IMG/VR virus record: IMGVR_UViG_3300020405_000020
Coordinates: 1-23,373 of that record
Direction: 5' to 3' (one strand)
From: a virus
Length of the DNA: 23,373 nt
A program made the translations under genes and the position numbers. The notes under the pieces are model-generated. The model was not told the origin of the DNA. It worked only from the letters and a program-made list of their open reading frames with translations, and ran no database searches. Below are positions 5,568 through 17,060 of this stretch, one piece after another. Within the stretch, counting starts at the first letter, position 1, and every line of letters begins with the position of its first letter.

Positions 5568-5670
5568 GCTGGATAAATTAAAAAAACCAAACCCACCTAG
5601 TAAACAAGCAGTGAAAAAAGCAAAGTTTCGGAATAAAACTTATGTCGGAAAAGCAAATGCTCGTATTTGA
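5524..5670 (+). CDS. Small basic protein of 48 residues bridging helicase and polymerase genes (hypothetical)
   Basis: This reading frame begins inside the 3' end of the helicase gene, runs open through the 74-base gap between helicase and polymerase, and ends 29 bases inside the polymerase exonuclease gene. The product (beginning MKLRTQFSIPAQTSELDKL) is lysine-rich, with a KKPNPPSKQAVKKAKF middle and no recognised domain. In a genome with almost no spacer DNA, the fact that the frame fills an otherwise empty gap is the main argument that it is real. T7-like phages often carry tiny genes here. No function is claimed. Confidence 0.5.
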   Translation: MKLRTQFSIPAQTSELDKLKKPNPPSKQAVKKAKFRNKTYVGKANARI

Positions 5671-6175
5671 CTGCGAAACTAACGGGTTATTGCATGACGT
5701 TTCTGAAATACATTGCATCGCAATATACGACAACACGAAAGAAGAAACCTTCGTATTTAATAATCAAGGTGGTTCATGCGGACCAATCACTGAAGCTTTA
5801 CATTGGCTCAGTTCGGCTGATGTTCTTGTCGGCCATAACGTTATTAATTACGACTTACCTGTTCTTCGGAAAATTTATTCTTGGTTTGATACTGATGCTT
5901 CTATTGTTGACACTCTTATCTTATCTCGCTTATATCATCCAAACATGATGGAGATAGATAAGAAAAGAAACATAGCAAGAATGCCATTACAGTTGTATGG
6001 TAGACATAGTTTAGAAAGTTATGGCTATCGATTACAAGAATACAAAGGTGAGTTCGGCAAAACAACAGACTGGCAAGAATGGAGCCAGGAGATGCAAGAC
6101 TATTGCGTACAAGACGTTAAAGTTACAACTAAATTATGCGAGCACTTCCGCCCTTACCTGACTGGTGCACGTTAG
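5642..6175 (+). CDS. DNA polymerase family A, 3'-5' exonuclease part (split gene)
   Basis: Proofreading domain of a T7 gp5-type polymerase, 177 residues. All three exonuclease motifs are present: Exo I with Asp10 and Glu12 (FDCET), Exo II with Asn66 to Asp71 (NVINYD), and Exo III with Tyr154 and Asp158 (YCVQD). The frame stops at 6173-6175 just after the domain, where T7 gp5 continues into the polymerase domain. The polymerase part follows in the -1 frame with a 40-base overlap. Joining CTG (6158-6160) to GAC with one base read twice gives the natural-looking bridge HFRPYLDWCTLEH. This suggests an ancestral single gene that lost one base, a programmed shift, or a sequencing error. No classical slippery heptamer is visible. 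Confidence 0.93.
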   Translation: MSEKQMLVFDCETNGLLHDVSEIHCIAIYDNTKEETFVFNNQGGSCGPITEALHWLSSADVLVGHNVINYDLPVLRKIYSWFDTDASIVDTLILSRLYHPNMMEIDKKRNIARMPLQLYGRHSLESYGYRLQEYKGEFGKTTDWQEWSQEMQDYCVQDVKVTTKLCEHFRPYLTGAR

Positions 6176-7398
6176 AACACCAAGTCGCACACATACTTAC
6201 AGAACAAGAACTTCATGGATGGCAATTCGATGAACAAAAATGTCAGCAACTTGAATCACATCTCAGAAGAGAGATGGAAGAAGTTACTGGAATATTACAA
6301 AGACAATTCCCTCTCATTGGAGGAAAGATGTTCACACCTAAACGAAATAACGCATCCCAAGGATATGTCGAGGGAGCAGAATTACAAAGATTAGTTGAGT
6401 TTAATCCAACATCACGAGATCATATAGCATGGATATTAAAGAATCGTCTGAAGATTACATTGACTCAGACTACGAAGACTGGGAAACCAATTATAGACGA
6501 GATCACTCTGACGGAGATATCGAATCCCTTTTGCAAGTTATGTGCGAAAGCTTTGGATCTAAAGAAGAAGCTAGGAATGATATCGCAAGGCGTGAACGCA
6601 TGGCTTCGGTTATGTACGAACTCTAGGATTCATCATCATTGTTCTGTATCGACAAACACATTTCGCTGTGCCCATCGTAAACCAAACGTGGCTCAGTCAC
6701 CAGCAGAAAAAGAATTTAGAGAACTATTTACAGCAAGTCCAGGTAATATAATGGTAGGTGCTGACCTATCAGGTATTGAGTTACGAATGTTAGCTCATTA
6801 CTTGGGACGATATGACGGGGGTCGATACGCCGATATTTTATTGAACGATGATATACATCAAGTAAACGCTGACAAAATAGGAATCACCCGCCGCCAAGTT
6901 AAGACTGTGACATATTGCTTTCTTTATGGTGGGGGAAATATTAAACTAGGTATGAGTTATGATAACTCTTTACAACCCAAGGAAGCCAGTAAAAAAGGAT
7001 CCGAGATTAGAGCGGCTTACGTTGCTGCAATCCCTGGACTCTCCGACTTATTGGCAGCGGTTACAGATAAGGCTGCTAATGGTTACCTCTTGGCATGTGA
7101 CGGACGAAGGGTGCTGGTCGATTCACCACACAAAGGATTGAATTACCTTCTACAATGTTCCGCTGGTATCATCGCAAAACGTTGGATGGTGATAGCAAAC
7201 GGCCAACTACAACCCTTTCACACTAAACAACTTGCGTTCATACACGATGAATTGCAATACGAATGTAATCCAAAATATACAGAAGAGGTAAAACAACAAC
7301 TTGAAAACTCAGCAGTTGACGCTGGAGTGTATTACAAGTTACGCTGCCCAATTGCAGCAGAAGCAAAGTCAGGAAACAACTGGAGCGAAGTCCACTAG
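6136..7398 (+). CDS. DNA polymerase family A, polymerase part (split gene)
   Basis: Polymerase domain of a T7 gp5-like enzyme, 420 residues from ATG 6136. Motif A carries Asp210 (GADLSGIELRMLAHYLGR; T7 D475). Motif B is RRQVKTVTYCFLYGGG with Lys256 and Tyr260 (T7 K522, Y526). Motif C is IHDE at 369-372 with the second metal-binding aspartate, Asp371. The protein ends NNWSEVH; T7 gp5 also ends in His, so the 3' end is complete. A tyrosine at the Y526 position predicts poor discrimination against dideoxynucleotides, as in T7. ATG 6136 lies inside the exonuclease gene and could serve for re-initiation, but its first eight or so residues are only the other frame of the exonuclease C terminus. The next gene overlaps the 3' end. 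Confidence 0.94.
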   Translation: MRALPPLPDWCTLEHQVAHILTEQELHGWQFDEQKCQQLESHLRREMEEVTGILQRQFPLIGGKMFTPKRNNASQGYVEGAELQRLVEFNPTSRDHIAWILKNRLKITLTQTTKTGKPIIDEITLTEISNPFCKLCAKALDLKKKLGMISQGVNAWLRLCTNSRIHHHCSVSTNTFRCAHRKPNVAQSPAEKEFRELFTASPGNIMVGADLSGIELRMLAHYLGRYDGGRYADILLNDDIHQVNADKIGITRRQVKTVTYCFLYGGGNIKLGMSYDNSLQPKEASKKGSEIRAAYVAAIPGLSDLLAAVTDKAANGYLLACDGRRVLVDSPHKGLNYLLQCSAGIIAKRWMVIANGQLQPFHTKQLAFIHDELQYECNPKYTEEVKQQLENSAVDAGVYYKLRCPIAAEAKSGNNWSEVH

Positions 7399-7735
7399 AC
7401 AATGCAGTATATGTAAAGATTTTAAATTATTATCAGATTTTAAAATATCTAATACAACTCCAAAAAAAATACATTATAAGAGTTTTTGTAAAAGTTGTGA
7501 CAGTGTAATATCAAAAGATCGTAGAGAGATACGTAAGAATGCACCACCACAGTCAGAACAATGTGACTTATGTGGCAAAGTGTGTAAAACATATTTAGAT
7601 CATTGTCATAACTCATTATTATTTAGAGGGTGGTTGTGTAACGAATGCAACACTGGTCTAGGTAAATTCAATGAAGATACAAATTTACTCAAAAAAGCAA
7701 TAACTTATTTAAACCCGAATGAAACTACTAATTGA
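7301..7735 (+). CDS. Endonuclease VII-like HNH/His-Me-finger nuclease (possible free-standing homing endonuclease)
   Basis: Zinc-dependent nuclease of the recombination endonuclease VII type. Counting from the most upstream start (TTG 7301), it has a first zinc knuckle with Cys35, Cys38, Cys63 and Cys66. The nuclease module follows with Cys88 and Cys91 (CDLCG), a DHCH core at 100-103, RGWLCNECN with Cys113 and Cys116, then GLGKFNED and a C-terminal helix. T4 endonuclease VII resolves branched DNA, but phages also carry this fold as mobile, free-standing endonucleases. There is no ATG upstream of the first zinc motif: only TTG or CTG starts inside the polymerase gene (7301, 7316, 7322, 7352), so the start is unsure. 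It overlaps the polymerase end by up to 98 bases and the exonuclease start by 17. T7 has no gene at this spot, so an inserted element is likely. Confidence 0.85.
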   Translation: MKTQQLTLECITSYAAQLQQKQSQETTGAKSTRQCSICKDFKLLSDFKISNTTPKKIHYKSFCKSCDSVISKDRREIRKNAPPQSEQCDLCGKVCKTYLDHCHNSLLFRGWLCNECNTGLGKFNEDTNLLKKAITYLNPNETTN

Positions 7736-13841: not shown

Positions 13842-13843
13842 TC

Positions 13844-13984
13844 ATGGCAGTACATAAAAAAGTATTAAAAAAAATTAAAAAGTACATGACAAAAAAGGAG
13901 AACGTATCTCCAACATCTAAGTACATAAGAGCTGTAGATAAAAGGAACAAAGCAATTCAAGATGCATTCAACGGTAACTTCTAA
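13844..13984 (+). CDS. Lysine-rich small protein, 46 residues (hypothetical)
   Basis: First of the small-gene run after scaffold. The product is strongly basic at the N terminus (MAVHKKVLKKIKKYMTKKEN) and ends DAFNGNF. It starts two bases after the scaffold stop and its own TAA overlaps the next ATG. No domain is recognised. The tight spacing and continuous tiling of the region by such frames support it as a real gene; nucleic-acid binding is only a guess from charge. Confidence 0.7.
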   Translation: MAVHKKVLKKIKKYMTKKENVSPTSKYIRAVDKRNKAIQDAFNGNF

Positions 13985-14154
13985 TGATGTATGACATGCA
14001 ACCTCCTAGAGCAACACCTCTAAGAGAGCCACCTAAACAAACAAAAAAATCACCAGCAAAAAAAACTGGCATTAAGTGTCCATCTGGTTTTTATTTTGAT
14101 AAGAAAAAAGGAAGGTGTGTACAGGCTGGTGTTGGTCCAGAATTTAAACCATGA
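13984..14154 (+). CDS. Small Cys-pair protein, 56 residues (hypothetical)
   Basis: Proline- and lysine-rich N-terminal half (PPRATPLREPPKQTKKSPAKK), then a compact motif CPSGFYFDKKKGRC with two cysteines 13 residues apart that may form a small folded hairpin or bind metal. Two adjacent ATGs are possible starts (13984, 13987). The first overlaps the preceding stop, and the gene ends in an ATGA overlap with hli. Function unknown. Confidence 0.65.
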   Translation: MMYDMQPPRATPLREPPKQTKKSPAKKTGIKCPSGFYFDKKKGRCVQAGVGPEFKP

Positions 14155-14348
14155 AGCCTGAAGACTTAGACAAACTATTAAACAATTATCCCTACGAACC
14201 GCCGATAAGAATTATGACCCATCATAACCACGAAAACGATAGATGGCATGTAGCTGAAGAAACAAATGGTCGCCTTGCAATGATAGGCATCATAGCTGCA
14301 TTAGGTGCTTATGCACTAACAGGACAAATTATTCCAGGTATATTTTAA
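14151..14348 (+). CDS. hli: High-light-inducible protein (Hli, chlorophyll a/b-binding-like)
   Basis: Host-derived photosynthesis gene of 65 residues. The diagnostic Hli box EETNGRLAMIG (36-46) contains the Glu, Asn and Arg used for chlorophyll binding and helix pairing. It is followed by the single membrane helix (about 42-58) and the ending ALTGQIIPGIF, typical of marine picocyanobacterial and cyanophage Hli. In cyanobacteria such proteins bind chlorophyll, dissipate excess light and protect photosystem II; in phages they are thought to keep photosynthesis running during infection. The gene lies in the middle of virion genes, as in P-SSP7-like phages, and is translationally coupled to its neighbour (ATGA). 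No psbA is found in this window. Confidence 0.95.
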   Translation: MKPEDLDKLLNNYPYEPPIRIMTHHNHENDRWHVAEETNGRLAMIGIIAALGAYALTGQIIPGIF

Positions 14349-14492
14349 ATGCCATATTCTAAATACTCTGCAAAACAAAAAGGTTTGGCATCTTTAGCTG
14401 GTAATAAAAAGAAGATTGGTGCAGACGATCTAGCAAAACTTAGAGCAATGAAGTCAAATGCCAAGAAAAAACGTAAGCCTAAAACTAGGTAA
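14349..14492 (+). CDS. Lysine-rich small protein, 47 residues (hypothetical)
   Basis: Follows hli with no gap (ATG directly after TAA). Composition is basic, with pattern YSAKQKGLASLAGNKKKIGA, a short helix DDLAKLRAMKS and a KKKRKPKTR tail. The first part resembles small phage proteins with a 'SxKQ+xLAxxAGNK' look, but no named family is claimed. Overlaps the next gene by 35 bases. Confidence 0.65.
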   Translation: MPYSKYSAKQKGLASLAGNKKKIGADDLAKLRAMKSNAKKKRKPKTR

Positions 14493-14700
14493 ACATAAAA
14501 GTAGAACTGGCGGCCTTACAAAAGCTGGTAGAGAAAAATATAACAGAGAAACTGGCAGTAATTTAAAAGCACCCCAGCCAGGAGGTGGACCTAGAAAGAG
14601 ATCATTTTGTGCTCGCATGAAAGGTGTAAAAGGTCCTATGAAGAAACCAAACGGCAAGCCTACACGTAAGGCTTTAGCCCTTCGCAAATGGAAATGTTAA
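14458..14700 (+). CDS. Small basic protein, DUF6321-like, 80 residues
   Basis: Strongly basic protein with the conserved layout GGLTKAGREKYNRETGSNLK (about 18-37), then PGGGPRKRSFCARMKG and a C-terminal LRKWKC. This glycine-tyrosine-arginine and SFCARMKG pattern is widespread in small proteins of marine phages (to my recollection DUF6321); function is not established. The two cysteines (one in FCARM, one at the end) could pair or bind metal. It overlaps the previous frame by 35 bases and ends one base before the next ATG. Confidence 0.8.
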   Translation: MPRKNVSLKLGKHKSRTGGLTKAGREKYNRETGSNLKAPQPGGGPRKRSFCARMKGVKGPMKKPNGKPTRKALALRKWKC

Positions 14701-14701
14701 C

Positions 14702-14851
14702 ATGAGCATACAATCGTATAAAAAAGATGGTAGGAAAAAGCCAAAAAATACAATGGGCAGTAAAATGTTAGGAGGATCATTTCCTATTCCTACAAAAAAG
14801 AAAGCTAAAGCTGCAAAGAAAGTTGTTAAAAAAGCAATGAAAAAAAGGTAG
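14702..14851 (+). CDS. Lysine-rich small protein, 49 residues (hypothetical)
   Basis: Short frame (MSIQSYKKDGRKKPKNTMGS start) with a central GGSFPIPTKKK and an alanine/lysine repeat tail (KAKAAKKVVKKAMKKR), similar in character to histone H1-like tails. No domain recognised. It starts one base after the preceding stop and is followed by another small basic frame. Confidence 0.6.
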   Translation: MSIQSYKKDGRKKPKNTMGSKMLGGSFPIPTKKKAKAAKKVVKKAMKKR

Positions 14852-14854
14852 ATT

Positions 14855-14923
14855 ATGGCACACAAAGGAAAAGGCTCCTGTAAAGGAGGCATGAAAAAAG
14901 GAGGAAAAAAAAATGCCCGCTAA
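14855..14923 (+). CDS. Very small Gly/Lys protein, 22 residues (tentative)
   Basis: A 22-residue frame (MAHKGKGSCKGGMKKGGKKN start) between two better supported genes, overlapping the next by 11 bases. Composition matches the other small proteins. The stretch AAAGGAGG / GGAGG just before the next ATG may be the ribosome binding region of that gene rather than coding sequence. Kept as tentative. Confidence 0.4.
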   Translation: MAHKGKGSCKGGMKKGGKKNAR

Positions 14924-15083
14924 ACGTGGACTCTATGCAAATATACATGCAAAGAGAAAAAGAATAGCTGCTGGGTCAGGTGAAAAAATGAGAAAGCCTG
15001 GAACTGCGGGGGCACCTACTGCTGCTAATTTTAGAAGAGCAGCTAAAACTGCTAAAGGTGCAAAGAGAAAAACTAAGAAGTAA
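14913..15083 (+). CDS. Conserved marine-phage basic protein, 56 residues
   Basis: Begins MPAKRGLYANIHAKRKRI and continues AAGSGEKMRKPGTAGAPT, then an alanine/lysine tail. The pattern 'GLYANIHAKR.RI.AGSGE.MRKPG..GAPTA..F' recurs, from memory, as a small protein in many aquatic phages; its role is unknown. A GGAGG at 14901-14905, eight bases upstream of the ATG, gives one of the clearer ribosome sites in the window. Likely nucleic-acid or capsid associated by charge, but this is a guess. Confidence 0.8.
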   Translation: MPAKRGLYANIHAKRKRIAAGSGEKMRKPGTAGAPTAANFRRAAKTAKGAKRKTKK

Positions 15084-15088
15084 TCTTT

Positions 15089-15226
15089 ATGTCTAATACA
15101 AAACCTACACCAGAACATGATTTTGAAGTTGCTAAACTACAAAAGCAAGTAGAGCAGATATTAGAAAAATATAGACAAGAAAAGATTCCTGTGTATAAAG
15201 AACCAGAAGGTGATCCTTCATTTTAA
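15089..15226 (+). CDS. Small helical protein, 45 residues (hypothetical)
   Basis: Unlike its basic neighbours this product is slightly acidic: a PTPEHDFEVAKLQKQVEQIL heptad-like helix that could form a coiled coil, then KYRQEKIPVYKEPEGDPSF. No domain recognised. It sits in the small-gene run upstream of the riboswitch and capsid. Confidence 0.65.
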   Translation: MSNTKPTPEHDFEVAKLQKQVEQILEKYRQEKIPVYKEPEGDPSF

Positions 15227-15228
15227 AA

Positions 15229-15354
15229 ATGGCTGAGAATGTTAGACACTGGAAACAAACAACTACGGGTAGAAAAAATATACCAATAGTTGCAGAAAAA
15301 CCAGAGAAAAAAAAGCGTGACGAAAAAGGACGCTTTATAAAAGAAGAAGAATAA
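15229..15354 (+). CDS. Small charged protein, 41 residues (hypothetical)
   Basis: Frame starting two bases after the previous stop (MAENVRHWKQTTTGRKNIPI) with a charged C-terminal part, KPEKKKRDEKGRFIKEEE. The DEKGRFIK pattern is common in small nucleic-acid-related phage proteins, but no family is assigned. Last coding frame before the riboswitch leader. Confidence 0.65.
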   Translation: MAENVRHWKQTTTGRKNIPIVAEKPEKKKRDEKGRFIKEEE

Positions 15355-15363
15355 ATGCCACGT

Positions 15364-15416
15364 CCGTTCATCCTGTTATAGGACGCATGAAACCTAGACA
15401 TGGAACGGGGTCTAGG
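15364..15416 (+). promoter_or_regulatory. Glutamine-II riboswitch (Downstream-peptide RNA)
   Basis: The RNA folds as the Downstream-peptide motif known from marine picocyanobacteria. P1 pairs CCGTTC (15364-15369) with GAACGG (15403-15408), six perfect pairs. P2 pairs TCC (15371-15373) with GGA (15381-15383) across a seven-base loop. A perfect seven-pair pseudoknot joins CCTAGAC (15393-15399), inside the P1 loop, to GTCTAGG (15410-15416) just after P1. The conserved-looking GGACGCATGA and GGAACGGGG segments match my recollection of the family, whose members bind L-glutamine. A 17-residue ORF follows, with its Shine-Dalgarno-like GGGAG (15422-15426) six bases after the pseudoknot. Ligand-stabilised folding could plausibly mask or expose that site. 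Ligand and sign of control are inferred from the family. Confidence 0.85.
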
Positions 15417-15433
15417 TATATGGGAGATTACTC

Positions 15434-15487
15434 ATGACAGTAACTTACGTATATCGTGGCGTTGCTTACACTAGAATAGTTAAGTAA
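15434..15487 (+). CDS. 17-residue YRG peptide controlled by the riboswitch
   Basis: The full product is MTVTYVYRGVAYTRIVK. A GGGAG ribosome site lies seven bases upstream (15422-15426), right behind the riboswitch pseudoknot. Downstream-peptide RNAs are by definition followed by very short ORFs (about 17-100 residues), so this is the expected partner. The YRGVxY core resembles the cyanobacterial DUF4278 family of tiny proteins. Function is unknown. A role in nitrogen or glutamine signalling is suggested only by the riboswitch. It is too short for routine gene callers. Confidence 0.75.
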   Translation: MTVTYVYRGVAYTRIVK

Positions 15488-15667
15488 CAACAAAGAAAGA
15501 GAGCACCTCAGAGTCGGACTCTCTTTCAGTTTGGCTTTTGACCCTTACGAGGATACTCACTAGCCGTCATGACGGTGGGATAGACCACGCAACAAATGAG
15601 TCGCATAAGACTCGCAACTTTTCACATGTGAAGACGATTATTTATACCTTAGATTTTATAACTTAAA
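15488..15667 (+). other. Structured non-coding leader between the peptide gene and the capsid gene
   Basis: About 180 bases with no convincing ORF but dense in dyad symmetry. It holds a perfect nine-pair hairpin at 15495-15527, a 12-base palindrome CCGTCATGACGG at 15564-15575, a GAGTC/GACTC hairpin near 15599-15613, and a 12-base palindrome TTCACATGTGAA at 15621-15632. A weak host-type promoter might be formed by TTCACA (15621) and TATACC (15643) with 16 bases between. This would be the natural place for the late promoter driving capsid, or for an RNA-processing site. None of these roles is proven by the sequence. Confidence 0.5.
15495..15527 (+). terminator. Perfect 9-bp hairpin after the peptide gene (terminator or processing site)
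   Basis: GAAAGAGAG (15495-15503) pairs exactly with CTCTCTTTC (15519-15527) around a 15-base loop. Downstream is AGTTTGGCTTTT, not a clean U-tract, so intrinsic termination would be weak. It may instead be a processing or mRNA-stabilising hairpin upstream of the capsid transcript. The fold is seen directly; the role is inferred. Confidence 0.4.
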
Positions 15668-17022
15668 ATGGCTAATGCTAATCAAGTTGCTTTAGGTAGA
15701 TCGAATCTATCTACAGGCACAGGGTATGGCGGTGCTACCGATAAGTACGCCCTTTACCTGAAATTATTTAGCGGCGAGATGTTTAAAGGATTCCAGCACG
15801 AAACAATTGCTAGAGATCTTGTAACAAAGAGAACACTCAGAAACGGCAAATCATTGCAGTTCGTCTACACAGGACGCATGAGCAGCTCTTTCCATACGCC
15901 AGGTACCCCCATATTGGGTAACAGTGACAAGGCACCTCCAGTGGCAGAGAAGACCATCGTAATGGATGATCTACTAATCAGCTCTGCATTTGTGTATGAT
16001 CTTGACGAAACACTTGCTCACTACGAATTAAGAGGAGAAATTTCCAAGAAGATTGGATATGCTCTTGCTGAAAAATATGACAGACTTATCTTCCGTTCTA
16101 TAACAAGAGGAGCTAGATCTGCATCTCCAGTATCTGCAACAAACTTTGCAGAGCCTGGTGGAACTCAAATCAGAGTTGGTAGTTCAACTAACGAATCTGA
16201 CGCTTTTGATGCTGGTGCACTAGTAAACGCATTTTATGATGCTGCTGCTGCTCTTGACGAAAAAGGAGTGAGTTCTGACGGACGCTGTGCCGTGTTAAAC
16301 CCAAGACAATTCTATTCCCTCATACAAAATGTAGGGTCTAACGGACTTGTCAACAGAGATGTACAGGGTGATGCATTACAAGGTGGTACAGGCGTTATTG
16401 AAATCGCTGGAATCCACATATACAAGTCTATGAATATTCCTTTCTTAGGCAAGTATGGTATCAAGTACGGCGGTACAACAGGTGAGACTTCTCCTGGAAA
16501 TCTTGGTGATTTCATTGGACCTACACCTGAGAATGCTAACGCTACTGGCGGAGTAAACAACGACTACGGTACTAACGCTGAGTTAGGTGCTAAGTCTGCT
16601 GGACTCATCTTCCAAAAGGAAGCTGCTGGTGTTGTTGAAGCAATCGGACCACAAGTTCAAGTAACAAACGGTGACGTTTCTGTAAGTTAAATTGCAGCTT
16701 TAATTAGTAATAATTATCGAATAATCGGATGAATTGCTGGAAGCCTAAGTCGAAAGATAAGGTAATCAGCAGCCAAGCCCTTCACGCTTGAAGGGAAGGT
16801 TCAGAGACTACATGGTGTACTAAGCGTAGTACGTAATACATGAATAGCGTCCGACTTCCTAATAGGAAGATGATATAGTCCGTGCCATATTGAAAGATAT
16901 GGATTACACGAATCTACCAAGGTGATGTGATCTTAGGTCGCATGGCTATGGGTGCAGACTACTTAAACCCAGCTGCTGCTGTTGAACTATATGTTGGTGC
17001 TACTGCTCCTTCTGCATTCTAA
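15668..17022 (+). CDS. Major capsid protein, T7 gp10-like, interrupted by a group I intron
   Basis: Shell-forming protein. Exon 1 runs 15668-16683 and exon 2 runs 16911-17022. Joining GT (16682-16683) to A (16911) restores a valine codon and yields 375 residues reading ...VQVTNGDVSV then IYQGDVILGRMAMGADY and ending TAPSAF. Unspliced message reaches TAA at 16688-16690, giving a 340-residue product ending DVSVS and lacking the last 36 residues. T7-like features are FSGEMFKGFQHETIARDLVTKRTL at the N terminus, GKSLQFVYTGRM, AEKYDRLIFRSITRGARS and the ADYLNPAAAVELY C-terminal segment. A strong terminator follows 16 bases after the stop. Codons ending in C (AAC, ATC, TTC) are commoner than in the tail genes, as expected for the most highly made protein. 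Confidence 0.95.
16684..16910 (+). ncRNA. Group I self-splicing intron (IA-like) in the major capsid gene, no ORF
   Basis: The 227-base intron has a complete group I core. P1: exon CTGT (16680-16683) with guide GCAG (16694-16697), giving the required U.G pair at the splice site. P3: TCGGATG (16725-16731) with CGTCCGA (16848-16854). P4: TGCTG (16735-16739) with CAGCA (16767-16771). P5: CCT with AGG. P6a: CCCTTC (16778-16783) with GAAGGG (16790-16795). P7: GACTA (16806-16810) with TAGTC (16876-16880). P8: CTTCCT (16855-16860) with AGGAAG (16864-16869). P9: CCATAT (16885-16890) with ATATGG (16897-16902). Extra helices between P7 and P3' (around 16811-16842) fit a IA-type layout, and the last base is G. 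Exact joining restores the capsid frame, fixing both splice sites. No homing endonuclease is encoded inside. Confidence 0.95.
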
Positions 17023-17037
17023 TTTATACATTTATAC

Positions 17038-17060
17038 GGGAGCTTCGGCTCCCCTTTTTT
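17038..17060 (+). terminator. Strong intrinsic terminator after the capsid gene
   Basis: GGGAGC (17038-17043), loop TTCG, GCTCCC (17048-17053), then C and six T: a GC-rich stem with an extra-stable UUCG-type loop and a U-tract. It lies 15 bases after the capsid stop, just as T7 places its main terminator after gene 10. It would let capsid message be made in excess over tail genes. Confidence 0.93.

Follow-up and report, generated by a model that had tools for sequence, protein, structure and literature searches.

Endonuclease-free group I introns, probably of a single IA2-like family, occupy eight positions of the major capsid gene of cyanopodoviruses

Positions 16684 to 16910 of the 23,373-base IMG/VR virus record IMGVR_UViG_3300020405_000020, which was analyzed over its whole length and is called the window here, are identified as a group I intron within the major capsid gene. 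We regard it as almost certain that this is a self-splicing, endonuclease-free, IA2-like intron, and that its family has colonized eight capsid-gene sites in marine cyanopodoviruses, spreads by recombination, and has moved between positions. Within that explanation, splicing of the capsid intron in the cell and the mechanism of its mobility are the parts that we infer, the former from the sequence. Taken alone, the window intron is a clear but unremarkable case of a known ribozyme; the interest lies in its family. The virus is placed with the P-SSP7-like cyanopodoviruses because of its gene order (T7-like RNA polymerase, helicase, split DNA polymerase, class II ribonucleotide reductase, portal, scaffold, capsid, and tail tubes) and because the exon 1 product is 94% identical in amino acids to P-SSP7 gp10.

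The capsid frame (15668-16690; the exon, intron, and hairpin features described below are on the plus strand) stops after 340 codons and the C-terminal segment resumes 227 bases further on, as the initial annotation had claimed with coordinates that proved exact to the base. An Rfam search, one of the checks it had proposed, returned a full-length match to RF00028 (model positions 1-253) at 16674-16902, with 109.9 bits against a curated cut-off of 50 bits and an E value of 4e-28. The model ends with P9 at 16902, short of the intron end at 16910. Joining 16683 to 16911 yields a single 375-codon frame, ...NGDVSV-IYQGDVILGRM..., with the exact V-S-V-I-Y-Q-G-D reading that had been predicted, and its product aligns without gaps over residues 1-375 with the P-SSP7 capsid protein of solved structure (2XD8). 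Exon 1 (15668-16683) comprises 338 codons and the GU of codon 339 and is recognized as a PHROG major head protein as well as through 2XD8. Exon 2 (16911-17022), made up of the remainder of codon 339, codons 340-375, and the stop, restores the conserved C terminus. The 227-nt intron between them is inserted in phase 2 of codon 339.

Comparison with intronless cyanophage capsid genes, also proposed at the outset, revealed exact empty sites. In the relative L003, the final 60 nt of exon 1 are identical to those of the window and the junction is TTTCTGT followed directly by AATCTACC; in L014, the end of exon 1 and the first bases of exon 2 are identical (TTTCTGT followed directly by AATCTA). The predicted spliced junction of the window capsid mRNA is ...GACGTTTCTGT joined to AATCTACCAAGG.... 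The 3′ splice site at 16910 was placed on the basis of the frame, the terminal G, and P10. Sites at 16901 and 16892 are likewise compatible with the frame; they were rejected because the residues gained occur in no relative. A terminator-like hairpin, by consensus match only, lies 3′ of the capsid gene (17038-17053).

All helices from P1 to P9, together with P10, could be drawn on the window intron, and P2 could also be placed, in agreement with the earlier proposal that the core helices P1 and P3-P9 are present and that the intron has a U.G pair at its 5′ site and a terminal G. P1 (16680-16697) pairs the exon bases CUGU and the intron bases AA (16680-16685) with the internal guide UUGCAG (16692-16697); it has four exon base pairs only, and the splice-site wobble is U16683.G16694. 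The catalytic core (16725-16854) consists of P3 (16725-16731 with 16848-16854), P4-P6 (16734-16799), and the 5′ strand of P7, GACUA (16806-16810), which pairs with UAGUC (16876-16880). P7.1 and P7.2 (16811-16842), an IA2 hallmark, have an invariant GUA(A) linker. The 3′ part (16855-16910) contains P8 (16855-16869), the 3′ strand of P7, P9 (16885-16902), and the terminal G16910. P10 joins AAU, the first bases of exon 2 (16911-16913), to AUU (16691-16693); it is 3 bp long here and 5-6 bp in many relatives. P7.1 and P7.2 joined through GUA, the criterion applied to cyanophage Pf-WMP3 (PMC3428280), point to an IA2-like subgroup, an assignment made on this criterion.

Covariation was assessed on an alignment of 29 capsid introns sharing less than 95% identity. 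Over these sequences, 92.1% of the cells were paired, compared with 35-42% when the partners were slid, two-sided changes were found in 43 of the 67 pairs, and the covariation score was 0.418, compared with 0.143 for shuffled controls and 0.06-0.10 for slid controls. Pairing was high in each helix considered (P3, 97%; P4, 99%; P7, 100%; P7.1, 100%; P7.2, 96%), and the P1 wobble is UG in all 24 sequences that can be aligned there. The exon ends differ between sites (CUGU, GGGU, GUGU, GAGU, CCGU, or GGCU) and the internal guide is altered to match, so that guide-exon pairing is present at all eight insertion sites despite the differing exon sequences. In L301, an exon change (AAGGU) is compensated by a change of the guide to GCCU.

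According to this structure, P1, formed by CUGU and the GCAG of the guide, would hold the 5′ splice site of the capsid mRNA, a guanosine bound in P7 would attack after U16683, and the end of exon 1 would attack after G16910, aligned through P10. The ligated mRNA would give rise to the normal 375-residue capsid protein. The in-frame UAA located five nt into the intron (16688-16690) would halt ribosomes on unspliced RNA ahead of the ribozyme core. Splicing would be required of every capsid mRNA, and not of every late transcript as the initial annotation had it. That the insertion is degenerate and does not splice, so that the capsid protein is cut to 340 residues and exon 2 is dead or separately translated, seems to us barely conceivable. 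It is true that the unspliced frame ends after 340 codons, but in all 29 relatives of the alignment the P3-P8 core is preserved and P7 does not vary, and exon 2 has no start codon at its beginning. Moreover, coding constraint is apparent on exon 2 behind the intron (differences among intron-bearing site-339 relatives are mostly synonymous), and the C-terminal segment in question is present in the solved P-SSP7 protein. In site-344 exon 2, 63% of the differences fall at third positions, which does not weigh either way. Phage T7 produces two capsid forms by frameshift, and it might be that regulated splicing similarly provides forms of 340 and 375 residues. With an intron at site 339, only the C-terminal 36 residues are lost, and two further sites, 341 and 344, lie close by. 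Nevertheless, we find such regulation very unlikely, as introns at sites 37, 75, 110, 118, and 214 would yield useless fragments, relatives exist without the intron, and the missing C-terminal segment is among the most conserved parts of the protein.

The family emerged from IMG/VR searches aimed at capsid relatives and at junction patterns between intron and exon. Group I introns were detected in the cyanopodovirus capsid gene of 46 further contigs, some of them near-duplicates, making at least 47 with the window. They are inserted at eight positions, residues 37, 75, 110, 118, 214, 339, 341, and 344 in window numbering, with a trend only toward conserved residues (p 0.065). Ten genes harbor two introns each: sites 37 and 75 in L173 and L289, 214 and 339 in L243, 118 and 339 in L245 and L291, 37 and 118 in L253, 75 and 110 in L262, 37 and 344 in L274, 214 and 344 in L308, and 118 and 344 in L313. 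The host gene may be distant: the capsid gene that carries the L260 intron is Syn5-like and shares only 34% identity with that of the window. The 51 complete capsid introns (39 distinct) measure 195-229 nt, and none of the 51 contains an endonuclease frame. An in-frame stop is found within the first five intron nt in 43 of the 51, regardless of phase, as expected if ribosomes must stay out of the core; the importance of in-frame stops in such introns has been discussed (PMC3984707).

The introns are patchily distributed and nearly confined to this gene in the records scanned. They are present in 5 of the 80 best capsid relatives, and RF00028 matched nowhere in 24 relatives with intronless capsid genes (760 kb). 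In 14 intron-bearing records, 17 RF00028 matches exceeded the cut-off, 16 of them within capsid genes and the last within a gene for the ribonucleotide reductase small subunit; as these records were preselected for capsid introns, the counts speak to the rarity of introns outside the capsid gene and give no frequency for capsid introns themselves. No capsid intron was found in sequenced isolates among 50,697 phage records, none of which spans the exons plus the intron. The exceptional match is a second, diverged group I intron (G003:C1:20596-20837, 66.7 bits) of L315, a cyanopodovirus that also bears a capsid intron. The capsid genes of P-SSP2 (L082, 2501-3814) and of L095-L106 encode about 60 extra residues near residue 290, possibly a surface domain. 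This insertion, also considered in P-SSP3, was rejected as an intron, since it adds protein sequence in frame within a single uninterrupted coding sequence and has no RF00028 match.

At site 339, the window intron is 95% identical to that of L290, compared with 68.5% for exon 1, and 92-93% identical to those of L245 and L291, compared with 61% for exon 1. Intron identity above exon identity, together with the patchy presence, suggests that the site-339 intron has been transferred between viruses, although ribozyme constraint may explain part of the higher conservation of the intron. Introns at different sites can also be closer to each other than to those of most other sites. The residue-341 intron of L307 (IMGVR_UViG_2667527327_000001) and the residue-110 intron of L262 are 93% identical and have the same guide and the target GUGU. 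We built a maximum-likelihood tree of the capsid introns and 80 introns from other contigs, the latter sampled by motif pattern, which biases the tree. In it, a single group (99/97) unites the introns of sites 339, 214, 110, and 341 with six site-37 rows and includes no outside intron; the site-339 introns are paraphyletic with respect to those of sites 37 and 214 (100/99). The minimum number of site changes among the capsid introns is eight. Deep nodes are weakly supported, and the placement of the site-344/75 and site-118 groups is without support.

One might suppose that each capsid site independently acquired an unrelated intron from a pool shared by phages. Similar introns do occur in many phages, and neither the site-118 introns nor the deep branches are securely attached to the others. 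Given the exclusive grouping of sites 37 (in part), 214, 339, 110, and 341 and the paraphyly of site 339, we consider independent capture rather improbable. The data are best explained by a family of IA2-like introns, free of endonucleases, that is transmitted horizontally and shifts from site to site within one gene. Recombination would account for its spread between viruses, to which shifts among positions of the capsid gene would be added.

How such shifts might occur was considered from the endonucleases present. The initial annotation had described the intron as devoid of ORFs, and this was borne out. With its 227 nt and a longest stop-to-stop run at site 339 of 42 codons, it is not a mobile intron with its own homing endonuclease, nor is it a trans-homing intron of the psbA type with an adjacent free-standing endonuclease, as none was found in or beside it in the window. 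The site-to-site movement might nevertheless be due to trans-acting homing endonucleases of relaxed specificity, rather than to reverse splicing at the RNA level, and we consider this possible, if doubtful. There is a precedent for trans homing in cyanophage psbA (F-CphI, as cited in PMC3428280), and HNH and endonuclease VII-like genes exist in these genomes. Against this, none adjoins or interrupts the introns, GIY-YIG endonucleases were absent from the 14 intron-bearing records, and the insertions are exact, with no visible flank carried from another site. An association with HNH endonucleases was rejected, as HNH genes are also found in P-SSP7 and in other intronless records, and as commonly (10 of 15 intronless records) as in intron-bearing genomes. 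Reverse splicing would fit, needing few matching bases in an abundant RNA, but it leaves the return to DNA unexplained, and a guide is shared only by some pairs of sites (37 with 344 and 110 with 341). The more specific proposal that a single endonuclease-free lineage moves within one highly transcribed gene, and almost exclusively there, by reverse splicing into capsid mRNA and return to DNA strikes us as unlikely. According to a 2014 review, transposition of bacterial group I introns by reverse splicing was without direct experimental support, with circumstantial evidence from rDNA only (PMC3984707). Eight positions in one protein gene, often with two introns per gene, provide many natural replicates of intron transposition, and the family could render this route testable.

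The location in a capsid gene had initially been described as unusual. It has precedents and is less exceptional than that. The capsid gene of mycobacteriophage LittleE has a group I intron proven by RT-PCR and N-terminal sequencing (PMC3706429), and a case in lactococcal phage Tuc2009 is cited in the same paper. Phage BAKA similarly harbors a small ORF-less intron in a virion gene (265 bp, tail gene; PMC3706429). Both introns splice efficiently in late infection (PMC3706429), a likeness that for the window intron is predicted from sequence. Unlike the cyanopodovirus introns, that of LittleE is 820 bp long, carries a homing endonuclease frame, and belongs to an unrelated phage group (PMC3706429), and multiple sites in one gene have not been reported for LittleE or BAKA. 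Group I introns also split the capsid gene of Delta and Zeta crAss-like phages at several places, with one MCP in five fragments (PMC7886860). Their detection relied on endonuclease domains, and the genomes concerned have abundant introns and inteins spread over numerous genes (PMC7886860), whereas the cyanopodovirus introns are ORF-less and, among the records scanned, almost limited to the capsid gene. Jug phages have a mean of 18.5 introns per genome, of about 206 nt, in terL, nrdD, polymerase, and other genes (PMC12363816).

Pf-WMP3, a T7-like cyanophage podovirus, likewise has an IA2 intron with P7.1 and P7.2, which splices in vivo and in vitro; it differs by its location in the DNA polymerase gene and its HNH endonuclease, I-PfoP3I (PMC3428280). 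The psbA introns of cyanomyoviruses S-PM2, S-RSM88, S-SRM01, and S-CBWM1 are similar in their cores (about 70-74% over 150-180 nt), but they lie in a photosynthesis gene and have associated endonuclease genes. Group I introns of rDNA, thought to spread by reverse splicing, also show related introns at differing positions of one gene family, in fungal structural RNA genes (PMC1299323) rather than in a phage protein gene. Our literature search, which mostly did not extend to subscription journals, found no paper on capsid introns in cyanopodoviruses. For marine cyanopodoviruses, the capsid protein has been put forward as the marker gene (PMC9860041); in intron-bearing viruses, this marker will be cut short by gene callers.

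Several other features of the window were noted. The DNA polymerase (5642-7398) is encoded by two overlapping frames, for the exonuclease and polymerase parts, and is annotated likewise in P-SSP7, for which a split gene or a programmed frameshift was suggested. An endonuclease VII-like gene (7301-7735) overlaps the polymerase end at the position of P-SSP7 gene 018, 9 kb from the intron. P-SSP7 has psbA between its hli-like and capsid genes; in the window, psbA is missing from this interval (13842-15667), and small frames, one of them DUF6321, occupy its position. A Glutamine-II riboswitch (RF01704, 56.2 bits) lies at 15362-15417, some 250 nt ahead of the capsid start codon, and P-SSP7 and many relatives also have it before their capsid genes; capsid expression may therefore respond to glutamine. 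In cyanobacteria, conserved peptides follow this riboswitch. The window has a similar short frame, MTVTYVYRGVAYTRIVK, directly 3′ of it (15434-15487), and the YRGVxY peptide recurs there in relatives.
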